A stretch of DNA of 64,000 nucleotides from Bacteroidales bacterium (GTDB lineage: Bacteria; Bacteroidota; Bacteroidia; Bacteroidales; VadinHA17), in assembly GCA_020201035.1 (NCBI GenBank), contig JAIVHO010000031.1:124001-188000 (forward strand), given 5' to 3'. The number at the start of each line of letters is the position of its first letter. Position 1 is the stretch's first letter. The notes beneath the pieces were generated by a model. The model was not told where the DNA came from and ran no database searches. It was given only the letters and a program-made list of their open reading frames with translations. This document shows positions 36,554-44,292 of the stretch, piece after piece. The position numbers and the translations under genes were made by a program.

Positions 36554-37351
36554 TCATAAAGGAGCATCCACCCTGCCCATATTACTGCGCAGGCTGCTGA
36601 ACAGTTCATGCAGAGCCTCTTCATCACCCTCTTCAATCATCCCGATCAGTTCCTTGAGCTTATCCATTATCTGGTGCAGTTTCTCTGCTGACCATGGATT
36701 AAGTAGGATCCCGCTGAGCAGGTAGTTATCCTCCGACAGCAAACCTCTTGCTATGTCAAGATGTCTCCTGAAGGTTGTACCCGGAACCTCAAGTCGGTCC
36801 ATGCAGGCTGAAAAGACAATAGTGGAACTGAAAGGAACCGAAAGCGAGTAGGCAATCACCCTGTCATGCTCCTCAAAGGAGTAATCAAAGATGGAGAGTT
36901 TCAGCCGGTTGTAAAAATCTCTGAAAAATCGATTTCCTTCAGGGTCTGATTCCTTTATTATTATCGCATTGTAACCCGCCAGATCCCTTATATTACCGAA
37001 TGTTGGACCAAACATGGGATGCGTTGAAACAAACCTCATCCCACACTCATTGTAGTATTTTGCCAGTCCGTTTTTTACAGAAGCAATATCACTGATAATT
37101 GTTCCCTGCTCCAGATACGGCATAATGGAGTTAAAAGCCCTTACAGTATCCTTTAAGCCGGTAGCATTGATAACCAGATCAGGATTAAATGACTTTATCT
37201 CCTCCACGCTCATAAAACGATGTGTATTGTAAAGATATTTCAGTTTCTCCCTGTCAGTATCATACACCCCCACCTCATAATCAAGGCAAAGTGTTTCTGC
37301 AAGCCATGATCCCATCCTTCCCGCACCTGTAATAAGCACCTTGTCAACCAT
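36554..37351 (-). CDS. tyrA: Prephenate dehydrogenase
   Basis: A 265-aa NAD(P)-binding enzyme of tyrosine synthesis: prephenate gives 4-hydroxyphenylpyruvate. The start MVDKVLITGAGRMGSWLAETL has the GxGxMG nucleotide-binding loop, and the FVSTHPMFGPTFGN segment near residue 107 holds the THPMFGP catalytic motif. A dimerisation region follows, with a short C-terminus. It overlaps the aroC stop by 8 bp and is the last gene of the aromatic operon. Confidence 0.92.
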   Translation of the reverse strand: MVDKVLITGAGRMGSWLAETLCLDYEVGVYDTDREKLKYLYNTHRFMSVEEIKSFNPDLVINATGLKDTVRAFNSIMPYLEQGTIISDIASVKNGLAKYYNECGMRFVSTHPMFGPTFGNIRDLAGYNAIIIKESDPEGNRFFRDFYNRLKLSIFDYSFEEHDRVIAYSLSVPFSSTIVFSACMDRLEVPGTTFRRHLDIARGLLSEDNYLLSGILLNPWSAEKLHQIMDKLKELIGMIEEGDEEALHELFSSLRSNMGRVDAPL

Positions 37352-38345
37352 TTTTGCGTAAATTAGAGTGTATACCCCTGTTCAACAGCATCAGGTCAGC
37401 AAGTGCAATTGCTACTGCCGACTCAACTATTACCGGCATTCTCAATGCAATACATGCATCATGCCTCCCCTCAACAATAAGGGTTTCAACTCTTCCTGAT
37501 TCCATATTAAGACTTTGCTGAGGTCTGGAAATACTACTGGTAGGTTTTACTGCCACCCTGAAAACAATCTCATTCCCGTTTGTTATGCCTCCGTTGATGC
37601 CACCAGCATTATTTGTAGATGTCTCACCTCCCGGTCCGGTAATCATATCATTATGCTCTGAACCTCTCATTGAGGCAGACCTGAAACCCGATCCAAACTC
37701 AATTCCCTTTATCGCAGGTATTGAAAAGATTATCTGACTGATAGCTGACTCAGCCGACCAGAAAAAAGGTTCTCCCAGTGAAGCAGGCATCTCCCGTACC
37801 CGACATTCAATCACGCCTCCTACAGAATCACCTTCCTCCAGAGCCATTGAAACAGCTGCATCGATATCTGTGTTACCACCTGCACTCAGAAGCACTGCCT
37901 CAGGTATGGCAGGGGCAATTATCCTTTTAGCAAGGGTACCTGCCACTACTATTCCCCATGTTAAACGGCCCGAGAAATGCCCCCCACCACGCCTGTCGCC
38001 ATACCCCCCGTACTTCATCTCAACAATCATATCAGCATGCCCAGGCCGGGGATGATTCTTCAGTTTATCATAATCCCCGGAACGTGAAAATGTGTTGGTT
38101 GTCAGAACCACCACAGGAGCTCCGGTAGTATATCCATCCAGCACCCCGCTTATTATCTCAGGCCTGTCATACTCTTTCCTGGGGGTAGTTCCCTTTGCCC
38201 CGCTTCTTCGGCGGTCAAGATCAGACTCTATCTCCTCAGGGTCAACCTTTATTCCGGGCGGACACCCATCTATCATTACTCCCACTGCAGCACCGTGTGA
38301 CTCACCAAATATTGATATCCTGAAAAGCTGCCCGAATGTATTCAT
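37344..38345 (-). CDS. aroC: Chorismate synthase
   Basis: A 333-aa enzyme using reduced FMN to convert EPSP to chorismate. It has the canonical FGESHG near residue 13, the DRRRSGAKGTTPRKE block, GHADMIVEMKYGGYGDRRGGGHFSGR near residue 95 (partly quoted) and RPQQSLNMESG near residue 282. It is slightly shorter than typical (~350-360 aa). A 17-bp sequence (38361-38377) upstream of its start is also present before the aminotransferase gene. Confidence 0.95.
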   Translation of the reverse strand: MNTFGQLFRISIFGESHGAAVGVMIDGCPPGIKVDPEEIESDLDRRRSGAKGTTPRKEYDRPEIISGVLDGYTTGAPVVVLTTNTFSRSGDYDKLKNHPRPGHADMIVEMKYGGYGDRRGGGHFSGRLTWGIVVAGTLAKRIIAPAIPEAVLLSAGGNTDIDAAVSMALEEGDSVGGVIECRVREMPASLGEPFFWSAESAISQIIFSIPAIKGIEFGSGFRSASMRGSEHNDMITGPGGETSTNNAGGINGGITNGNEIVFRVAVKPTSSISRPQQSLNMESGRVETLIVEGRHDACIALRMPVIVESAVAIALADLMLLNRGIHSNLRKNG

Positions 38346-38392: not shown

Positions 38393-38522
38393 TTACACTT
38401 TTTCCTCAAAACTTTTACTTATCCCTACAGTCACATTTTCTATCATATTTTTCACTGACAATTTTCTGTCAAAATTTTCCGATCTATTCTCCTGCCAACT
38501 TTTCCCCCGTCATATTTTCTCA
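38393..38522. repeat. Degenerate ~13-bp tandem repeat between aroC and aroA
   Basis: About ten imperfect units of the form TCAnATTTTCtnn start near 38393, 38406, 38419, 38431, 38443, 38456, 38469, 38482, 38495 and 38510, spacing 12-15 bp and mostly 13. The array runs into the aroA stop codon. No role is known. Confidence 0.55.
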
Positions 38523-39781
38523 TCACCGATAAGATTAACCTCCATACCACATTGTCTTATATCATCAAAAAAACCGGGATAGGATTTTGCAACGGCATCA
38601 TACCCTGACAGAGTAACTCCGTTAAGCGAGGAAGCTGCAGCTACAGACAGTGCCATTGATATCCGGTGATCACCATGAGATTCACACCTGCCCCCCTTGA
38701 CCCTGCTGCCCCCCTTAACAATCAGGGATGTGCCTCTATTGGTAATCTCGAATCCTAACTTTCTGAACTCCCTTTCCAGAGCCTCTCCCCTGTCGCTCTC
38801 CTTTATCCTGAGTCTTTCTGTTCCGGTGATTACTGAGACTCCCTGACAGCCGGTGGCCAGAGCAACCAGTGGAGGAGCCAGGTCAGGAGCACCAGACACA
38901 TCAACAGTGAATCCCTTCAAGGGTACGGGCTTAACAATAACCGAATCATCTGTGGTAACGATATCCGAGCCAGCCAGTTTGAGGGAATCAATTATCTGCC
39001 TGTCGGGTTGAAAAGAGGCTCCTCTCAGGTTAGTAACTTCAATCCCCCTTCCCAGTGCACCGGCTACCAGCAGAAATGCCGCTCCGCTCCAGTCACCCTC
39101 AATCGTAAAGTCGGTATTACTGTATCTCTGTTTCCCGGGAATATAAAAATCACGATAATTATCATTCTCAACGGTAACGCCGAAATGCTTCATTACCTCT
39201 ATGGTTATATCAATATATGATCTGCTTGAAAGGGAATCAACTGTAAGGTATGAACTCACTTCTGCCAGCGGAAGTGCCATAAGAAGACCCGTCAGAAACT
39301 GTGAGCTTGACGTTCCGTCGAGAAATGCCCTCCCCCCACTGAGGGGGCCCTTAACCCGAAGGGGCAGGAACCCGTTATTACTCTCTGCCATGGCACCACA
39401 GCCAGTAAGGTATTTAACCACCTCACCCATTGGACGCTTCAGCACGGTTCCCGTGCCGTTAATTGTTATCCATCCGCTGTACGTAGCAGCAACTGCCGAG
39501 AAGAGGCGTACGCCAAGCCCGGATTCACCGGCATCCAGAGAGGCAGATAACGGGGTTAACCCACCTGTTATCAGCACCCGGCTATCCTCCCGGGCAACAG
39601 TGGCTCCAAGAGCCTGCGCCATACCGATGGCAGCCAGCGAATCATTACACAGCGAGGGTATGAACAGGGTGGAAGTTCCTTTTGCCATCAGTGCTGCAGC
39701 AACTGCCCGCTGCATTACGCTTTTGGATGGAGGAGCCTGAACAGAGGCTCCGGTAAACGATCCTGATATTTCTAATTCCAC
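38510..39781 (-). CDS. aroA: 3-phosphoshikimate 1-carboxyvinyltransferase (EPSP synthase)
   Basis: A 423-aa enzyme that condenses shikimate-3-phosphate with PEP. Motifs: PPSKSVMQRAVAAALM near residue 17, DAGESGLGVRLFSAVA near 81, a SSQFLTGLLMALPLA segment near 158, and the C-terminal KESDRGEALEREF and SHGDHRISMALSVAA. It starts 1 bp after the aroB stop codon. It competes for the same PEP pool handled by PpdK, PckA and Pyk elsewhere in the window. Confidence 0.95.
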   Translation of the reverse strand: MELEISGSFTGASVQAPPSKSVMQRAVAAALMAKGTSTLFIPSLCNDSLAAIGMAQALGATVAREDSRVLITGGLTPLSASLDAGESGLGVRLFSAVAATYSGWITINGTGTVLKRPMGEVVKYLTGCGAMAESNNGFLPLRVKGPLSGGRAFLDGTSSSQFLTGLLMALPLAEVSSYLTVDSLSSRSYIDITIEVMKHFGVTVENDNYRDFYIPGKQRYSNTDFTIEGDWSGAAFLLVAGALGRGIEVTNLRGASFQPDRQIIDSLKLAGSDIVTTDDSVIVKPVPLKGFTVDVSGAPDLAPPLVALATGCQGVSVITGTERLRIKESDRGEALEREFRKLGFEITNRGTSLIVKGGSRVKGGRCESHGDHRISMALSVAAASSLNGVTLSGYDAVAKSYPGFFDDIRQCGMEVNLIGDEKI

Positions 39782-39782
39782 C

Positions 39783-40817
39783 TTAGTACCCCTTCTTTTT
39801 TAACCAACCGTTAATAACTTCGAGTGGCACCTTTTCAATCACCGCCTCACCTATTCCCTTAAGAAAAACAAAACTTATATCCTTCATTGCTCTCTTCTTA
39901 TCTAAAAACACCAGACCTGATATTTTGCCCTCCGCGACGTCAAGCGGAGGCAATAAGTCCATCTGTTCAAGTAATTTCTCTATGCGCTCCCGCTCATCGT
40001 AACTAAGGTAACCCATCTCTTCAGAGACCAATGCAGCAAAAGCTATTCCATGTGCCACTGCAACACCATGGGGAAGTCCGGTTGCCGCTTCAATGGCATG
40101 TCCTGCAGTATGTCCAAGGTTAAGAAGCCGTCTTTTACCCCCCTCCTTCTCATCCATCTCAACAATGGCAGTTTTAATTTTTATACACTCAGGAATAACA
40201 GACTCACAAAAATCATTTTCCGGGGAACTCCCGCTAACATATCTTTCTTCAAGGCGCAAAAAAATGTCCCTGTTCCCGATAAGTCCGTACTTGACTACCT
40301 CGCCAAGTCCTGATCTGTATTCATTAAGCGGTAAGGTTGAAAGAAAAAGAGGATCGCATATTACAAACTCCGGCTGGCGGAATGTACCCGCTATATTCTT
40401 TATCCCTCCGGCATTAACTCCGTTTTTTCCTCCTATTCCGGCATCAACCTGAGCGAGAAGTGTTGTTGACACAAATGCACAATCGATACCCCGCATAAAG
40501 AGAGAGGCCACTAATCCCGTAAGGTCACTGACCATTCCGCCTCCTATACCCACCAACAGTGAATTTCTGTCGGCACCAAGCCCTGCCAGCCTGACTATCA
40601 GCTCTGAAGTCATCTGAAAGGATTTTGACTTTTCACCCGCCTCAACCACCAGAACCGGAAAGTCAGGAAATTTATCCTTATAGAGCGAATTAACATTGGA
40701 ATCTGTTATAATAAATGTATTACCAGGATAACAGAGCCGGGACAGCAGGCTCTCCCATCCTCCACCAAAATATATCTCGCAGATACCACTCTCTACCCTG
40801 AGTCTGATTTTCTCCAT
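39783..40817 (-). CDS. aroB: 3-dehydroquinate synthase
   Basis: A 344-aa NAD- and metal-dependent enzyme that cyclises DAHP to 3-dehydroquinate. Motifs: DSNVNSLY near residue 39, the nucleotide-binding GGGMVSDLTGLVASLFMRG near 93 (quoted to 19 residues), KNGVNAGGIKNIAGTFRQP near residue 133 and RRLLNLGHTAGHAIEAATG with the metal-binding His pair near 228. It is 40 bp downstream of the DAHP synthase fusion and is followed by aroA. Confidence 0.95.
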   Translation of the reverse strand: MEKIRLRVESGICEIYFGGGWESLLSRLCYPGNTFIITDSNVNSLYKDKFPDFPVLVVEAGEKSKSFQMTSELIVRLAGLGADRNSLLVGIGGGMVSDLTGLVASLFMRGIDCAFVSTTLLAQVDAGIGGKNGVNAGGIKNIAGTFRQPEFVICDPLFLSTLPLNEYRSGLGEVVKYGLIGNRDIFLRLEERYVSGSSPENDFCESVIPECIKIKTAIVEMDEKEGGKRRLLNLGHTAGHAIEAATGLPHGVAVAHGIAFAALVSEEMGYLSYDERERIEKLLEQMDLLPPLDVAEGKISGLVFLDKKRAMKDISFVFLKGIGEAVIEKVPLEVINGWLKKKGY

Positions 40818-40857: not shown

Positions 40858-41937
40858 CTAATTCATAACCTTGTTCTGCAAGTTGATAGATTCCTGGTGA
40901 ATCTGTCTGAACATCTCAATGATAAATGAATCACTTAAGCCCAGTAATCTTGATTTACGAAGTCTTGCATCGAGAAGATCAGCCCACCTTGAAGTCTGCA
41001 GAATTGTAATATTCTGACGCTTCTTATATTCTCCTATCTTCTCTGATACCGACATTCTGCTTTTCATTATTCTCAGCAGTTCTTCATCCCAGGCATCTAT
41101 CTGTCTTCTCAGTTCGAGAAGTATCTCTGTCCCTTCTGTTTCCAGGGCATCTGACTGCCTGCAGACCAGTTTATCGAGCAGCAGTTTAAGATCTGATGGG
41201 GTAAGTTGCTGATTTTTATCGCTCAGTGCTGAATCAGGATCTATATGGGACTCTATAAAAAGTCCTTCAAAATCAAGATCCATAGCTGTCTGGGCCACTG
41301 AAAACAGAAGCTCCCTGTTGCCACATATATGACTGGGATCAGTTATTACCGGCAGTTCAGGAAACCTTCTCTTAAGCTCAACAGGGATCTCCCATTGAGG
41401 CATATTCCTGTAGGGAGACTCCCCGTAATGACTGAACCCCCTGTGAACAGCAGCTAACCTTGATATTCCTGCTTTGTTCAGTCTTTCCAGTGCACCAACC
41501 CATAACTCAATATCCGGGTTTACCGGATTCTTCACAAAAACAGGAATATCAATTCCCCTCAGGGCTTCAGCCAACTCCTGGATGGCAAAAGGGTTTGCAG
41601 TTGTTCTGGCGCCTATCCATAGTATATCAATATCATACTTCAGTGCTTCACGTATATGCCATACATTGGCTACCTCTGTAGCTGTTAACATCCCGGTCTC
41701 CTCCTTTACCCTTCTGAGCCAGGGAAGTGCAACTGAGCCCATTCCTTCAAACCCTCCCGGCCTGGTGCGTGGTTTCCATATCCCTGCCCTGAAAACATCT
41801 ACCCCCATCCGGCTCAGTTCTGTGGCAGTGGAGATCACCTGTTCTTCACTTTCGGCACTGCATGGCCCAGAGACAATCAGTGGTTTATTCTGCTTGTCAA
41901 AAAGCGGCTCCTTATGCAGATTAAGACTCTCCTTCAT
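40858..41937 (-). CDS. Bifunctional DAHP synthase / chorismate mutase
   Basis: A 359-aa fusion. Residues 1-~255 are a type I-beta DAHP synthase (VSGPCSAESEEQV near 22, KPRTRPGGFEGMG near 55, IDILWIGARTTANPF near 98, ITDPSHICG near 195). Residues ~265-355 are an AroQ-type chorismate mutase (LRRQIDAWDEELLRIMKSR). It catalyses the first pathway step and the chorismate to prephenate branch. Regulation by the branch products is plausible by analogy but not shown here. Confidence 0.93.
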   Translation of the reverse strand: MKESLNLHKEPLFDKQNKPLIVSGPCSAESEEQVISTATELSRMGVDVFRAGIWKPRTRPGGFEGMGSVALPWLRRVKEETGMLTATEVANVWHIREALKYDIDILWIGARTTANPFAIQELAEALRGIDIPVFVKNPVNPDIELWVGALERLNKAGISRLAAVHRGFSHYGESPYRNMPQWEIPVELKRRFPELPVITDPSHICGNRELLFSVAQTAMDLDFEGLFIESHIDPDSALSDKNQQLTPSDLKLLLDKLVCRQSDALETEGTEILLELRRQIDAWDEELLRIMKSRMSVSEKIGEYKKRQNITILQTSRWADLLDARLRKSRLLGLSDSFIIEMFRQIHQESINLQNKVMN

Positions 41938-41969: not shown

Positions 41970-43175
41970 TTATATCCCGGAAAGGAGGGTTACATTTTCC
42001 TTTACCGATTCACCTTCCTGCCGGGCATTAACCCTGGCAACTGCTTCTTCTATCTTCTCAACCGGATTACATAATGAGATCCTGACATATCCTTTCCCGT
42101 TTGCACCAAAAACAGCTCCCGGGGTAATGAACAGTGCGAAACGGTCAAGCAGGTAATCAGAAAAATCCATTGAACATGTATGACCGTCAGGTATACGGGC
42201 CCATACAAACATGCCCGTCTGACCATCCTCAAAGCGGCATCCCAGACTATCCAGCAGTGCATAAACTGTTTCTCTCCTCTCCCGGTACATCCTGTTCAGT
42301 TCCAGAGTCCAGCTGTCGGGTAGCTTCAGGGCAGCGATTGCTGCTCTCTGCAGAGGAAGAAACATGCCTGAATCCATATTGCTCTTCACCCGGAGTATGT
42401 AGTCAATATACTCCTTACTACCCCCAACCATTCCTATTCTCCAGCCTGCCATACTATGAGATTTACTCAGTGAATTAAGTTCCAGGGCTGTTTCCATGGA
42501 ACCCTCTGATTCCATAATACTCAACGGGTGATCATTTAATATCTGGCCATAGGGATTATCATTAACTATCAGTATATTATTCCTTCTGCCAAAATCAACC
42601 AGCTTATCAAAGAGCTCCCGTGAAGCCCTCTTCCCGGTTGGCATATTAGGGAAATTAACCCACATCAGCTTCACCCCCTCCACTCCCGTTTTCTCAATAT
42701 GTTCGGGATCAGGCATCCATCCATTCTCACTGGTAAGATCATAGTATATGCACCTGGCCGAGCAGAGTCTGGCTGCTGCTGCATAGGCAGGATAACCCGG
42801 ATCGGGAACCAGAACACCATCTCCCCTGTTCAGGAAGGCCATGCTGATATGCATAATTCCCTCCTTGGAACCCAGCAGAGGAAGTATCTCACTTTCCGGA
42901 TCAAAGGAGACATTATAACGCATCTTATACCACTCTCCAAATGCCTCCCTTAGCTCCCTGACACCCCTGTAAGGCTGATAGTTGTGTGACCCTGGCAGAT
43001 AAATGGATTCAACCGCATTATTAATAACCTCCGGGGCAGGAGGTGTATCCGGACTTCCAATACCCAGGTTTATGACATCAATACCTCTCTTCTCCATTTG
43101 CCTGATCTGATCAAGCCTGGCAGAAAAATAGTACTCACTCACCCTGCTTATTCTCTCTGATGGTTTTACACTCAT
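41970..43175 (-). CDS. Class I/II aminotransferase of the aromatic operon
   Basis: A 401-aa PLP enzyme (start at 43175: MSVKPSERISRVSEYYF). It has NLGIGSPDTPPAPEV near residue 36, the SLSKSHSMAGWRIGMVGG lysine motif near 230 and a C-terminal substrate-binding Arg in YVRISLCNP. Its position as first structural gene after the aromatic leader suggests that it transaminates phenylpyruvate and 4-hydroxyphenylpyruvate, though family resemblance alone would also allow aspartate or LL-diaminopimelate. No prephenate dehydratase gene accompanies it in the window. Confidence 0.82.
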   Translation of the reverse strand: MSVKPSERISRVSEYYFSARLDQIRQMEKRGIDVINLGIGSPDTPPAPEVINNAVESIYLPGSHNYQPYRGVRELREAFGEWYKMRYNVSFDPESEILPLLGSKEGIMHISMAFLNRGDGVLVPDPGYPAYAAAARLCSARCIYYDLTSENGWMPDPEHIEKTGVEGVKLMWVNFPNMPTGKRASRELFDKLVDFGRRNNILIVNDNPYGQILNDHPLSIMESEGSMETALELNSLSKSHSMAGWRIGMVGGSKEYIDYILRVKSNMDSGMFLPLQRAAIAALKLPDSWTLELNRMYRERRETVYALLDSLGCRFEDGQTGMFVWARIPDGHTCSMDFSDYLLDRFALFITPGAVFGANGKGYVRISLCNPVEKIEEAVARVNARQEGESVKENVTLLSGI

Positions 43176-43284: not shown

Positions 43285-43404
43285 TCAAAAAAAAATCCCG
43301 ATATAACCGGGATCTGCTTTCAGTGGTCCACAGACCAGTTGCAGGAGATCCCGTAAGGTTCCCGGATAATAACCGCAATAAAAATTTCTTCCTTTAAATT
43401 CCAT
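43285..43404 (-). CDS. Candidate second leader peptide of the aro operon (39 codons)
   Basis: ATG at 43404, TGA at 43285-43287. The beginning is MEFKGRNFYCGYYPG, with Phe and Tyr codons clustered at positions 3, 8, 9, 12 and 13. The frame stays open through the second terminator hairpin (ending PGYIGIFF) and stops just after it. Translation to the end would melt that hairpin. It is weaker evidence than leader 1: it is long and could be chance. Confidence 0.4.
   Translation of the reverse strand: MEFKGRNFYCGYYPGTLRDLLQLVCGPLKADPGYIGIFF
43287..43313 (-). terminator. Second attenuator terminator (aro leader)
   Basis: Read on the minus strand: ATCCCG, a 7-nt loop, CGGGAT, then a run of Ts (plus-strand A-tract 43287-43295). 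Perfect 6-bp stem. It lies ~110 bp before the aminotransferase start, so it must be read through for expression. Confidence 0.75.
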
Positions 43405-43410
43405 AGTGCC

Positions 43411-43439
43411 AAAAAAAAAGGCCCCGTAACAACGGGACC
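43411..43439 (-). terminator. First attenuator terminator (aro leader)
   Basis: On the minus strand GGTCCCGT-TGTT-ACGGGGCC followed by nine Ts: 8-bp stem with one G-T pair. It starts ~30 bp after the stop of leader peptide 1, the normal layout of a translation-coupled attenuator. Confidence 0.82.
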
Positions 43440-43470
43440 ATCCAATATTATAATGCATATAATCCCTCTT

Positions 43471-43527
43471 CTAACTCTTGCGGAAGTAGTAATAGAATCC
43501 GTAAAATATGTTCTGAAGAGCAATCAT
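43471..43527 (-). CDS. Aromatic leader peptide (attenuator peptide), MIALQNIFYGFYYYFRKS
   Basis: An 18-codon ORF with seven aromatic residues clustered at positions 8-15 (F,Y,G,F,Y,Y,Y,F). It sits directly after a promoter and directly before an intrinsic terminator, upstream of the aromatic biosynthesis operon. This is the classic layout of ribosome-mediated attenuation: when Phe/Tyr-tRNA is scarce the ribosome stalls and an antiterminator can form. The antiterminator pairing has not been computed. Too short for ordinary ORF calling. Confidence 0.78.
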   Translation of the reverse strand: MIALQNIFYGFYYYFRKS

Positions 43528-43544
43528 GCTGTTTATTTATGCGA

Positions 43545-43575
43545 CAAATGTAGTATATATATTTATTTGAGCAAG
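43545..43575 (-). promoter_or_regulatory. Promoter of the aromatic operon leader
   Basis: Minus-strand CTTG (43572-43575) followed after 19 bp by TACATTTG (43545-43552), a good Bacteroidota -33/-7 pair. The expected start is ~10 bp upstream of the leader-peptide ATG. It overlaps, divergently, a candidate nth promoter. Confidence 0.6.
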
Positions 43576-43647: not shown

Positions 43648-44292
43648 ATGGACCGGAGTGAGATTTACAGGAGAACTATTGAATATTTCCAGAAAGAAAT
43701 GCCGGTAGCAGAGACTGAACTGGTTTTCAGGAACCCCTATGAGTTAATGGTTGCAGTAATATTGTCAGCTCAGTGTACTGATAAAAGGGTAAATGAGATA
43801 ACCCCGGCACTTTTCATGAGGTTCCCCTCCGCAGAGAGCCTTGCTGATGCTGTACCTGAGGAGATCTTTCCCTATATCCGTAGCTGCTCTTACCCCAACA
43901 ATAAGTCGAAACATCTTTATGGAATGGCGTCAGCGCTTGTTAACAATTTCGGAGGAGTGGTTCCCTCTGACGTTGATGAATTGCAGAAACTTCCCGGAAT
44001 AGGAAGAAAAAGCGCCAATGTTATTGCAAGTGTGGTTTTTAATAAGCCTGCAATGGCCGTTGACACACATGTTTTCAGGGTATCTGCAAGAATCGGGCTG
44101 ACTAAAGGAGCCCGTACACCACTGGAGGCCGAAAGGCAGCTGGTATCACAAATTCCTGAAAACCTTATACCGTTGGCGCATCACTGGCTGATACTACATG
44201 GCAGGTATATATGCAAAGCCCGCAACCCCGGATGTGACAAGTGTGGCCTCTCTGATTTCTGCCACTATTTTAATGCCCAAAAAAAGGAATGA
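43648..44292 (+). CDS. nth: Endonuclease III
   Basis: A 214-aa DNA glycosylase/AP lyase of base-excision repair acting on oxidised pyrimidines. The helix-hairpin-helix LPGIGRKSANVIASV near residue 115 includes the catalytic Lys (position ~120). The catalytic Asp lies in AVDTHVFRVSARIG near 138. The C-terminal cluster-binding cysteines follow the C-x6-C-x2-C-x5-C spacing (CKARNPGCDKCGLSDFC). It is divergent from the aromatic operon leader. Confidence 0.95.
   Translation: MDRSEIYRRTIEYFQKEMPVAETELVFRNPYELMVAVILSAQCTDKRVNEITPALFMRFPSAESLADAVPEEIFPYIRSCSYPNNKSKHLYGMASALVNNFGGVVPSDVDELQKLPGIGRKSANVIASVVFNKPAMAVDTHVFRVSARIGLTKGARTPLEAERQLVSQIPENLIPLAHHWLILHGRYICKARNPGCDKCGLSDFCHYFNAQKKE

Follow-up and report, generated by a model that had tools for sequence, protein, structure and literature searches.

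We analysed a 64,000-nucleotide stretch of a Bacteroidales genome (contig JAIVHO010000031.1; hereafter the window), in which an aromatic amino acid operon lies on the minus strand behind a leader region (Table 1). From the aminotransferase gene through DAHP synthase/chorismate mutase, aroB, aroA and aroC to tyrA, the genes are those listed in a preliminary description of this DNA. The intergenic gaps of the operon are short, the exception being 164 nt upstream of aroC, and no convincing minus-strand terminator was found between its genes from the aminotransferase to tyrA. The pheA gene (prephenate dehydratase), which is the first gene in most relatives, is absent from the window operon. The endonuclease III gene (nth, 43648-44292, plus strand) is divergent from the leader promoter.

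Table 1. Leader features and operon genes in the window (positions count from the first letter of the window)
Feature	Position	Strand	Basis or remark
-33 element TTG	43572..43574	minus	Bacteroidota-type promoter, 19 nt 5' of the -7 box
-7 element TACATTTG (TAnnTTTG)	43545..43552	minus	read from sequence
Leader peptide gene 1, MIALQNIFYGFYYYFRKS	43471..43527	minus	ATG at 43527, stop at 43471; sequence, shuffles, homologous position in relatives
Antiterminator strand of module 1, AGGGATTA	43460..43467	minus	folding; partner is GGTCCC of terminator 1
Intrinsic terminator 1, GGTCCCGTTGTTACGGGGCC	43420..43439	minus	sequence; then nine Ts, 43419-43411
Leader peptide gene 2, MEFKGRNFYCGYYPGTLRDLLQLVCGPLKADPGYIGIFF (begins MEFKGRNFYCGYYPG..., MEFKGRNFYCGYYPGTLRDLLQ...)	43285..43404	minus	ATG at 43404; sequence, relatives
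Antiterminator strand of module 2, CGGGATCT	43346..43353	minus	folding; partner AGATCCCG at 43315-43308
Intrinsic terminator 2	43293..43315	minus	sequence; nine-T run at 43295-43287
Aminotransferase, first structural gene	41970..43175	minus	gene reading
DAHP synthase / chorismate mutase fusion	40858..41937	minus	gene reading
aroB, 3-dehydroquinate synthase	39783..40817	minus	gene reading
aroA, EPSP synthase	38510..39781	minus	gene reading
aroC, chorismate synthase	37344..38345	minus	gene reading
tyrA, prephenate dehydrogenase	36554..37351	minus	gene reading

In the first module, the promoter, the 18-codon ORF and the terminator with its nine Ts are all present on the minus strand where the preliminary description had put them. 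Its count of seven aromatic residues in eight positions is also correct, as codons 8-15 of leader 1 hold three Phe and four Tyr. We saw no Shine-Dalgarno sequence where the leader begins. Among 3000 dinucleotide-preserving shuffles of the region, none had a terminator behind an ORF with seven or more Phe/Tyr in 10 codons; the arrangement of leader and terminator is more than chance. The earlier account of a single attenuator has to be corrected, since a second module had been overlooked between terminator 1 and the aminotransferase gene, and the two stand in series. Leader 2 has two Phe and three Tyr in codons 3-13, and its frame continues through terminator 2, which no in-frame stop precedes, a departure from the classical layout. 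With a ribosome placed on Tyr13, CGGGATCT is left free, and its predicted pairing to the 5' arm of terminator 2 (AGATCCCG) gives a fold of -22 kcal/mol.

About 300 loci were gathered through the aminotransferase from genomes of the organism's own family, order and phylum and from named genomes. In a scan of the 260 regions preceding the first gene, a strict cut-off (seven or more aromatic codons in 10, and a terminator no further than 120 nt away) left 184 with a Phe/Tyr leader and its terminator, compared with none of 1300 dinucleotide shuffles and none of the 260 opposite strands. The distinct modules collected, 231 in number, come from Bacteroidales, Flavobacteriales, Cytophagales, Chitinophagales, Sphingobacteriales and Saprospirales. 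At about 25 of 200 joint-operon loci the leader went undetected, in part from detection limits. Across the 231 modules the aromatic codons are restricted to one frame, that of the ORF, with 1793 of them there and 518 and 594 in the two others; both synonymous codons are in use for Phe and for Tyr, and 226 of the 231 leader ORFs start with ATG. A TAnnTTTG box is located within 100 nt 5' of the leader start at 155 of 209 loci, compared with 18 of 209 for the opposite strand, and TTG lies 17-26 nt 5' of the box in 125 of the 155 relatives having one. The preliminary description had named a lack of conservation in relatives as grounds for abandoning the attenuator; leader, terminator and antiterminator are instead kept throughout the phylum, and the sequence gives no sign of its second ground, transcripts beginning 3' of the leader. 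Flavobacteriales leaders, among them L125, L139, L160, L170 and L186, repeatedly have a lone Trp codon that precedes the aromatic run by a few codons, and 59 of the 231 leaders contain a Trp codon, perhaps because DAHP synthase also serves tryptophan.

We calculated, module by module, how probable it is that the 5' arm of the terminator is already paired upstream, using the RNA outside the ribosome footprint; the folding is an equilibrium calculation, with the timing of transcription and translation outside the model. The mean probability of sequestration is 0.79 for a ribosome on the middle aromatic codon and 0.20 for one at the stop codon; of 227 modules, 226 switch as expected. When the spacer is shuffled, the corresponding values are 0.49 and 0.38. 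Module 1 of the window gives about 0.8 with the ribosome at codons 8-15 and 0.32-0.34 at Ser18 or the stop. The antiterminator strand ends at about the stop codon and the terminator starts at a median of 33 nt beyond it; the modelled geometry of the leaders is of the classical pheA/trp type. The mean antiterminator energy is -11.8 kcal/mol for native pairs and -8.1 kcal/mol when the strands are swapped among relatives. The native antiterminator/terminator pair is better than the swapped ones in 208 of 230 cases across very different sequences (for example, AAGUCGGUU/AACCGACUU in L110 and GGAAGGUC/GGCCUUCC in L179), indicating that the antiterminator covaries with the terminator. The antiterminator fold, which had only been inferred, is therefore now backed both by ribosome-masked folding and by covariation. 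The leaders thus possess the parts by which a ribosome-mediated attenuator is recognised, namely a codon-enriched ORF, an intrinsic terminator and a mutually exclusive antiterminator.

Tandem modules exist at about 20 loci, including Chitinophaga (L179, L185), and a TAnnTTTG box between the modules was absent from all 18 loci examined. In L105 and L106, the second leader likewise stays in frame through its own terminator, with no stop before it. The second module of the window is likely to be a working attenuator. We do not put this higher because leader 2 is weaker than most of the family (five aromatics in 13 codons), because its frame passes through its own terminator and because a chance ORF as rich was obtained in 10 of 2000 shuffles. 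The same features favour the alternative that module 1 alone is a working attenuator, ORF 2 being fortuitous and terminator 2 serving to stop leakage or being otherwise controlled. However, in the nearest relative found (L032, aminotransferase 59% identical) both modules, MAYIYNTFYFFYFSRGE and MRRLNTFYYYYFFITIRDYHS, are strong and follow each other in this order, antiterminator 2 of the window is strong and rightly placed, and tandem modules recur at the other loci, so that we consider this alternative unlikely.

The codon content of the leaders follows the gene content of the operons. The Tyr fraction is 0.44 in joint operons, 0.67 in operons without pheA, most of which have DAHP synthase, and 1.00 in operons of aminotransferase and tyrA, compared with 0.09 for pheA alone, a small class for which the detection cut-off was slightly looser. 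When independent pairs were chosen on the aminotransferase tree, the higher Tyr fraction was found in the pheA-less member in 12 of 12 informative pairs, with one tie (p=0.0005). In the Cytophagales (Pseudarcicella, Arcicella, Flectobacillus, Siphonobacter), the operon consists of the aminotransferase and tyrA only, tyrA being seen at four of seven loci with contig ends cutting some of the rest, and the seven leaders contain 39 Tyr and no Phe codons. In the genus g120, pheA was found in none of four genomes (G119, G131, G141, G147) and the two leader regions recovered (L036, L033) are nearly pure Tyr. It is possible that members of this genus are Phe auxotrophs. The Tyr fraction was 0.77 for operons of genomes without any pheA match and 0.62 for those of genomes having pheA elsewhere, a difference that is not significant (p=0.17).

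In the genome of the window (G000), pheA exists alone on another contig, preceded by the leader MIDNSCIFTGFFFFIKAG, which has five Phe and no Tyr, and by a terminator. This leader may have arisen by duplication of the operon leader: when Phe and Tyr are equated, the operon leader of the same genome is its best match of 230 as a peptide but ranks only sixth as DNA. Split pheA genes in two related genomes, both of one genus, have the leaders MNLSRFFGFFFFGTG and MNLSRFFGFSFFGTG, and those in three further genomes have MYFDFVFGFLFCFPKS, MRRNSFRFFFFFAFFFC... and MITVNTIRFFFYFKMEA. Six solo pheA genes lack a leader. Judging from the upstream sequence, five of them are directly behind an apparent leuB and one is behind an apparent chorismate mutase domain; as all six sit behind other genes, no leader is expected there. 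In one related lineage (L091-L094, L102), pheA lacks a separate leader and comes directly after an apparent leuB (3-isopropylmalate dehydrogenase), and phenylalanine synthesis in this lineage may be under the control of the leucine operon. As controls from the genome of the window, trpE is preceded by MDFTINTNWWWLREIIDP and then a terminator (L320, G000:C61), and hisG by MNFYALHHHHHYTCREASRR and then a terminator (L321, G000:C23). With these Trp and His leaders, the organism therefore appears to use leader-peptide logic in general. Ketol-acid reductoisomerase (KARI_C) was not found in this genome, the assembly of which is 94% complete, and branched-chain amino acid synthesis may be missing from it.

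Two other accounts of the leaders were weighed. The terminated leader might be a small RNA, or the peptide a small protein, acting in trans, the terminator being merely a 3' end. Attenuated leaders by nature end as short RNAs, and the peTrpL leader peptide of Sinorhizobium, reported to have a role in trans (PMC7298713), provides a precedent. However, the peptide sequence shows no conservation beyond the aromatic run, the leader composition tracks the operon content, and the antiterminator is conserved and covarying, all of which make this account very improbable. Rfam searches, run with loose and with curated thresholds, returned nothing over the window leader but chance matches below threshold; the T-box model, with its specifier loop and antiterminator, is unmatched by the leaders, and neither Bacteroid-trp nor other described leader RNAs of Rfam match over them at the gathering score. 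That the leader is a riboswitch or T-box binding tRNA or the amino acid directly, with the ORF incidental, is hardly credible, as the T-boxes used by tyrosine genes of other bacteria (PMC1262725) are outweighed by Rfam scores that are all below cut-off over the leaders and nowhere near threshold in the window, by the confinement of Phe/Tyr codons to one frame and by the prevalence of ATG starts.

Attenuation by a Phe/Tyr leader, as first proposed for this locus, is thus supported by the phylum-wide conservation, the fold switch and the codon content that tracks operon content. We consider it highly likely that two ribosome-mediated transcription attenuators in series govern the operon from the aminotransferase to tyrA, and the Phe/Tyr-packed peptide genes very probably act as starvation sensors. 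A single transcript would start from the TAnnTTTG promoter. With ample charged tRNA-Phe and tRNA-Tyr, the ribosome would reach the end of leader 1 and cover GGGAUU, upon which terminator 1 would form and transcription would stop. A shortage of either charged tRNA would stall the ribosome at codons 8-15, and the free GGGAUU would pair with GGUCCC. With GGUCCC captured, RNA polymerase would continue into module 2, where leader 2 would repeat the decision. Both gates would have to be passed, from which less leak and a steeper response are to be expected, the two modules presumably acting multiplicatively. Which amino acids are sensed would follow from the products of the operon, and pheA, which appears to have moved out, has its Phe-only leader in the same genome.

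In a wider sense, one rewritable leader family probably reads Phe, Tyr or both across the Bacteroidota. Its codons would have been retargeted time and again when operons were split or pheA was lost, and in some lineages a doubling into two same-signal attenuators in series would sharpen the switch. Bacteroidota dominate gut and soil, and few regulators of amino acid synthesis are known in them; here, a legible sensor of Phe and Tyr supply would stand in front of their shikimate operon. As the leader codons record the product of the operon, specificity and auxotrophy can be predicted from a leader, as in the genus without pheA whose leaders are almost pure Tyr. The operon splits can be regarded as natural experiments in which single T/A changes in the second position of codons rewrite a regulatory code. 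The tandem form raises a testable question about the steepness of the switch.

The kind of attenuator is already known from pheL, trpL and hisL. The E. coli pheA leader (pheL) has a short ORF rich in codons of the product, a three-way choice of RNA structures and an intrinsic terminator, and it senses Phe only. The leaders described here share the short ORF of product codons, the three-way choice and the intrinsic terminator. Unlike pheL, those of the joint operons, which cover the path from shikimate to tyrosine, have both Phe and Tyr codons, and the window locus has two serial modules and a Bacteroidota promoter and shows no Shine-Dalgarno sequence at the start of the leader. The trp and his attenuators, including Bacteroid-trp of Rfam (RF01692), follow the same logic with other amino acids and belong to a different RNA family. 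Two short ORFs in series within one leader are also found in Salmonella mgtCBR, where the tandem attenuators sense different signals, ATP and Pro (PMC3641672), whereas both modules here are Phe/Tyr-coded and each has its own intrinsic terminator.

Within the Bacteroidota, leader-like small ORFs are known in Bacteroides thetaiotaomicron (PMC7366714). The preliminary description was aware of no description of leaders for both Phe and Tyr over such an operon in the phylum. As a correction, a putative attenuator of the pheA-hisHb-aroAIbeta-aroQ-tyrA operon of B. thetaiotaomicron was already tabulated in 2005 (Song et al. 2005, PMC1173090, Table 7). That entry, drawn from a structure-prediction database, concerns the same type of operon and a predicted terminator/antiterminator; as tabulated, it comes without a leader peptide, an amino acid or codon specificity, tandem modules or an operon-splitting test. 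For Flavobacterium psychrophilum, a member of the same phylum, clues of leader-peptide attenuation before amino acid operons have been given (PMC9723704), and the main text names neither Phe nor Tyr and no such element. The literature searched, with the surveys of Vitreschak 2004 and Lopatovskaya 2010 lying outside it, yielded no paper on leader-peptide attenuation with tyrosine codons and no description of Tyr-only or dual Phe and Tyr leader attenuators or of same-signal tandems. Compared with these systems, what appears to be new, as judged from the sequences, is the phylum-wide occurrence of putative dual Phe/Tyr and Tyr-only leaders that seem to have been retargeted as operon content changed and that occur in duplicate in some lineages.
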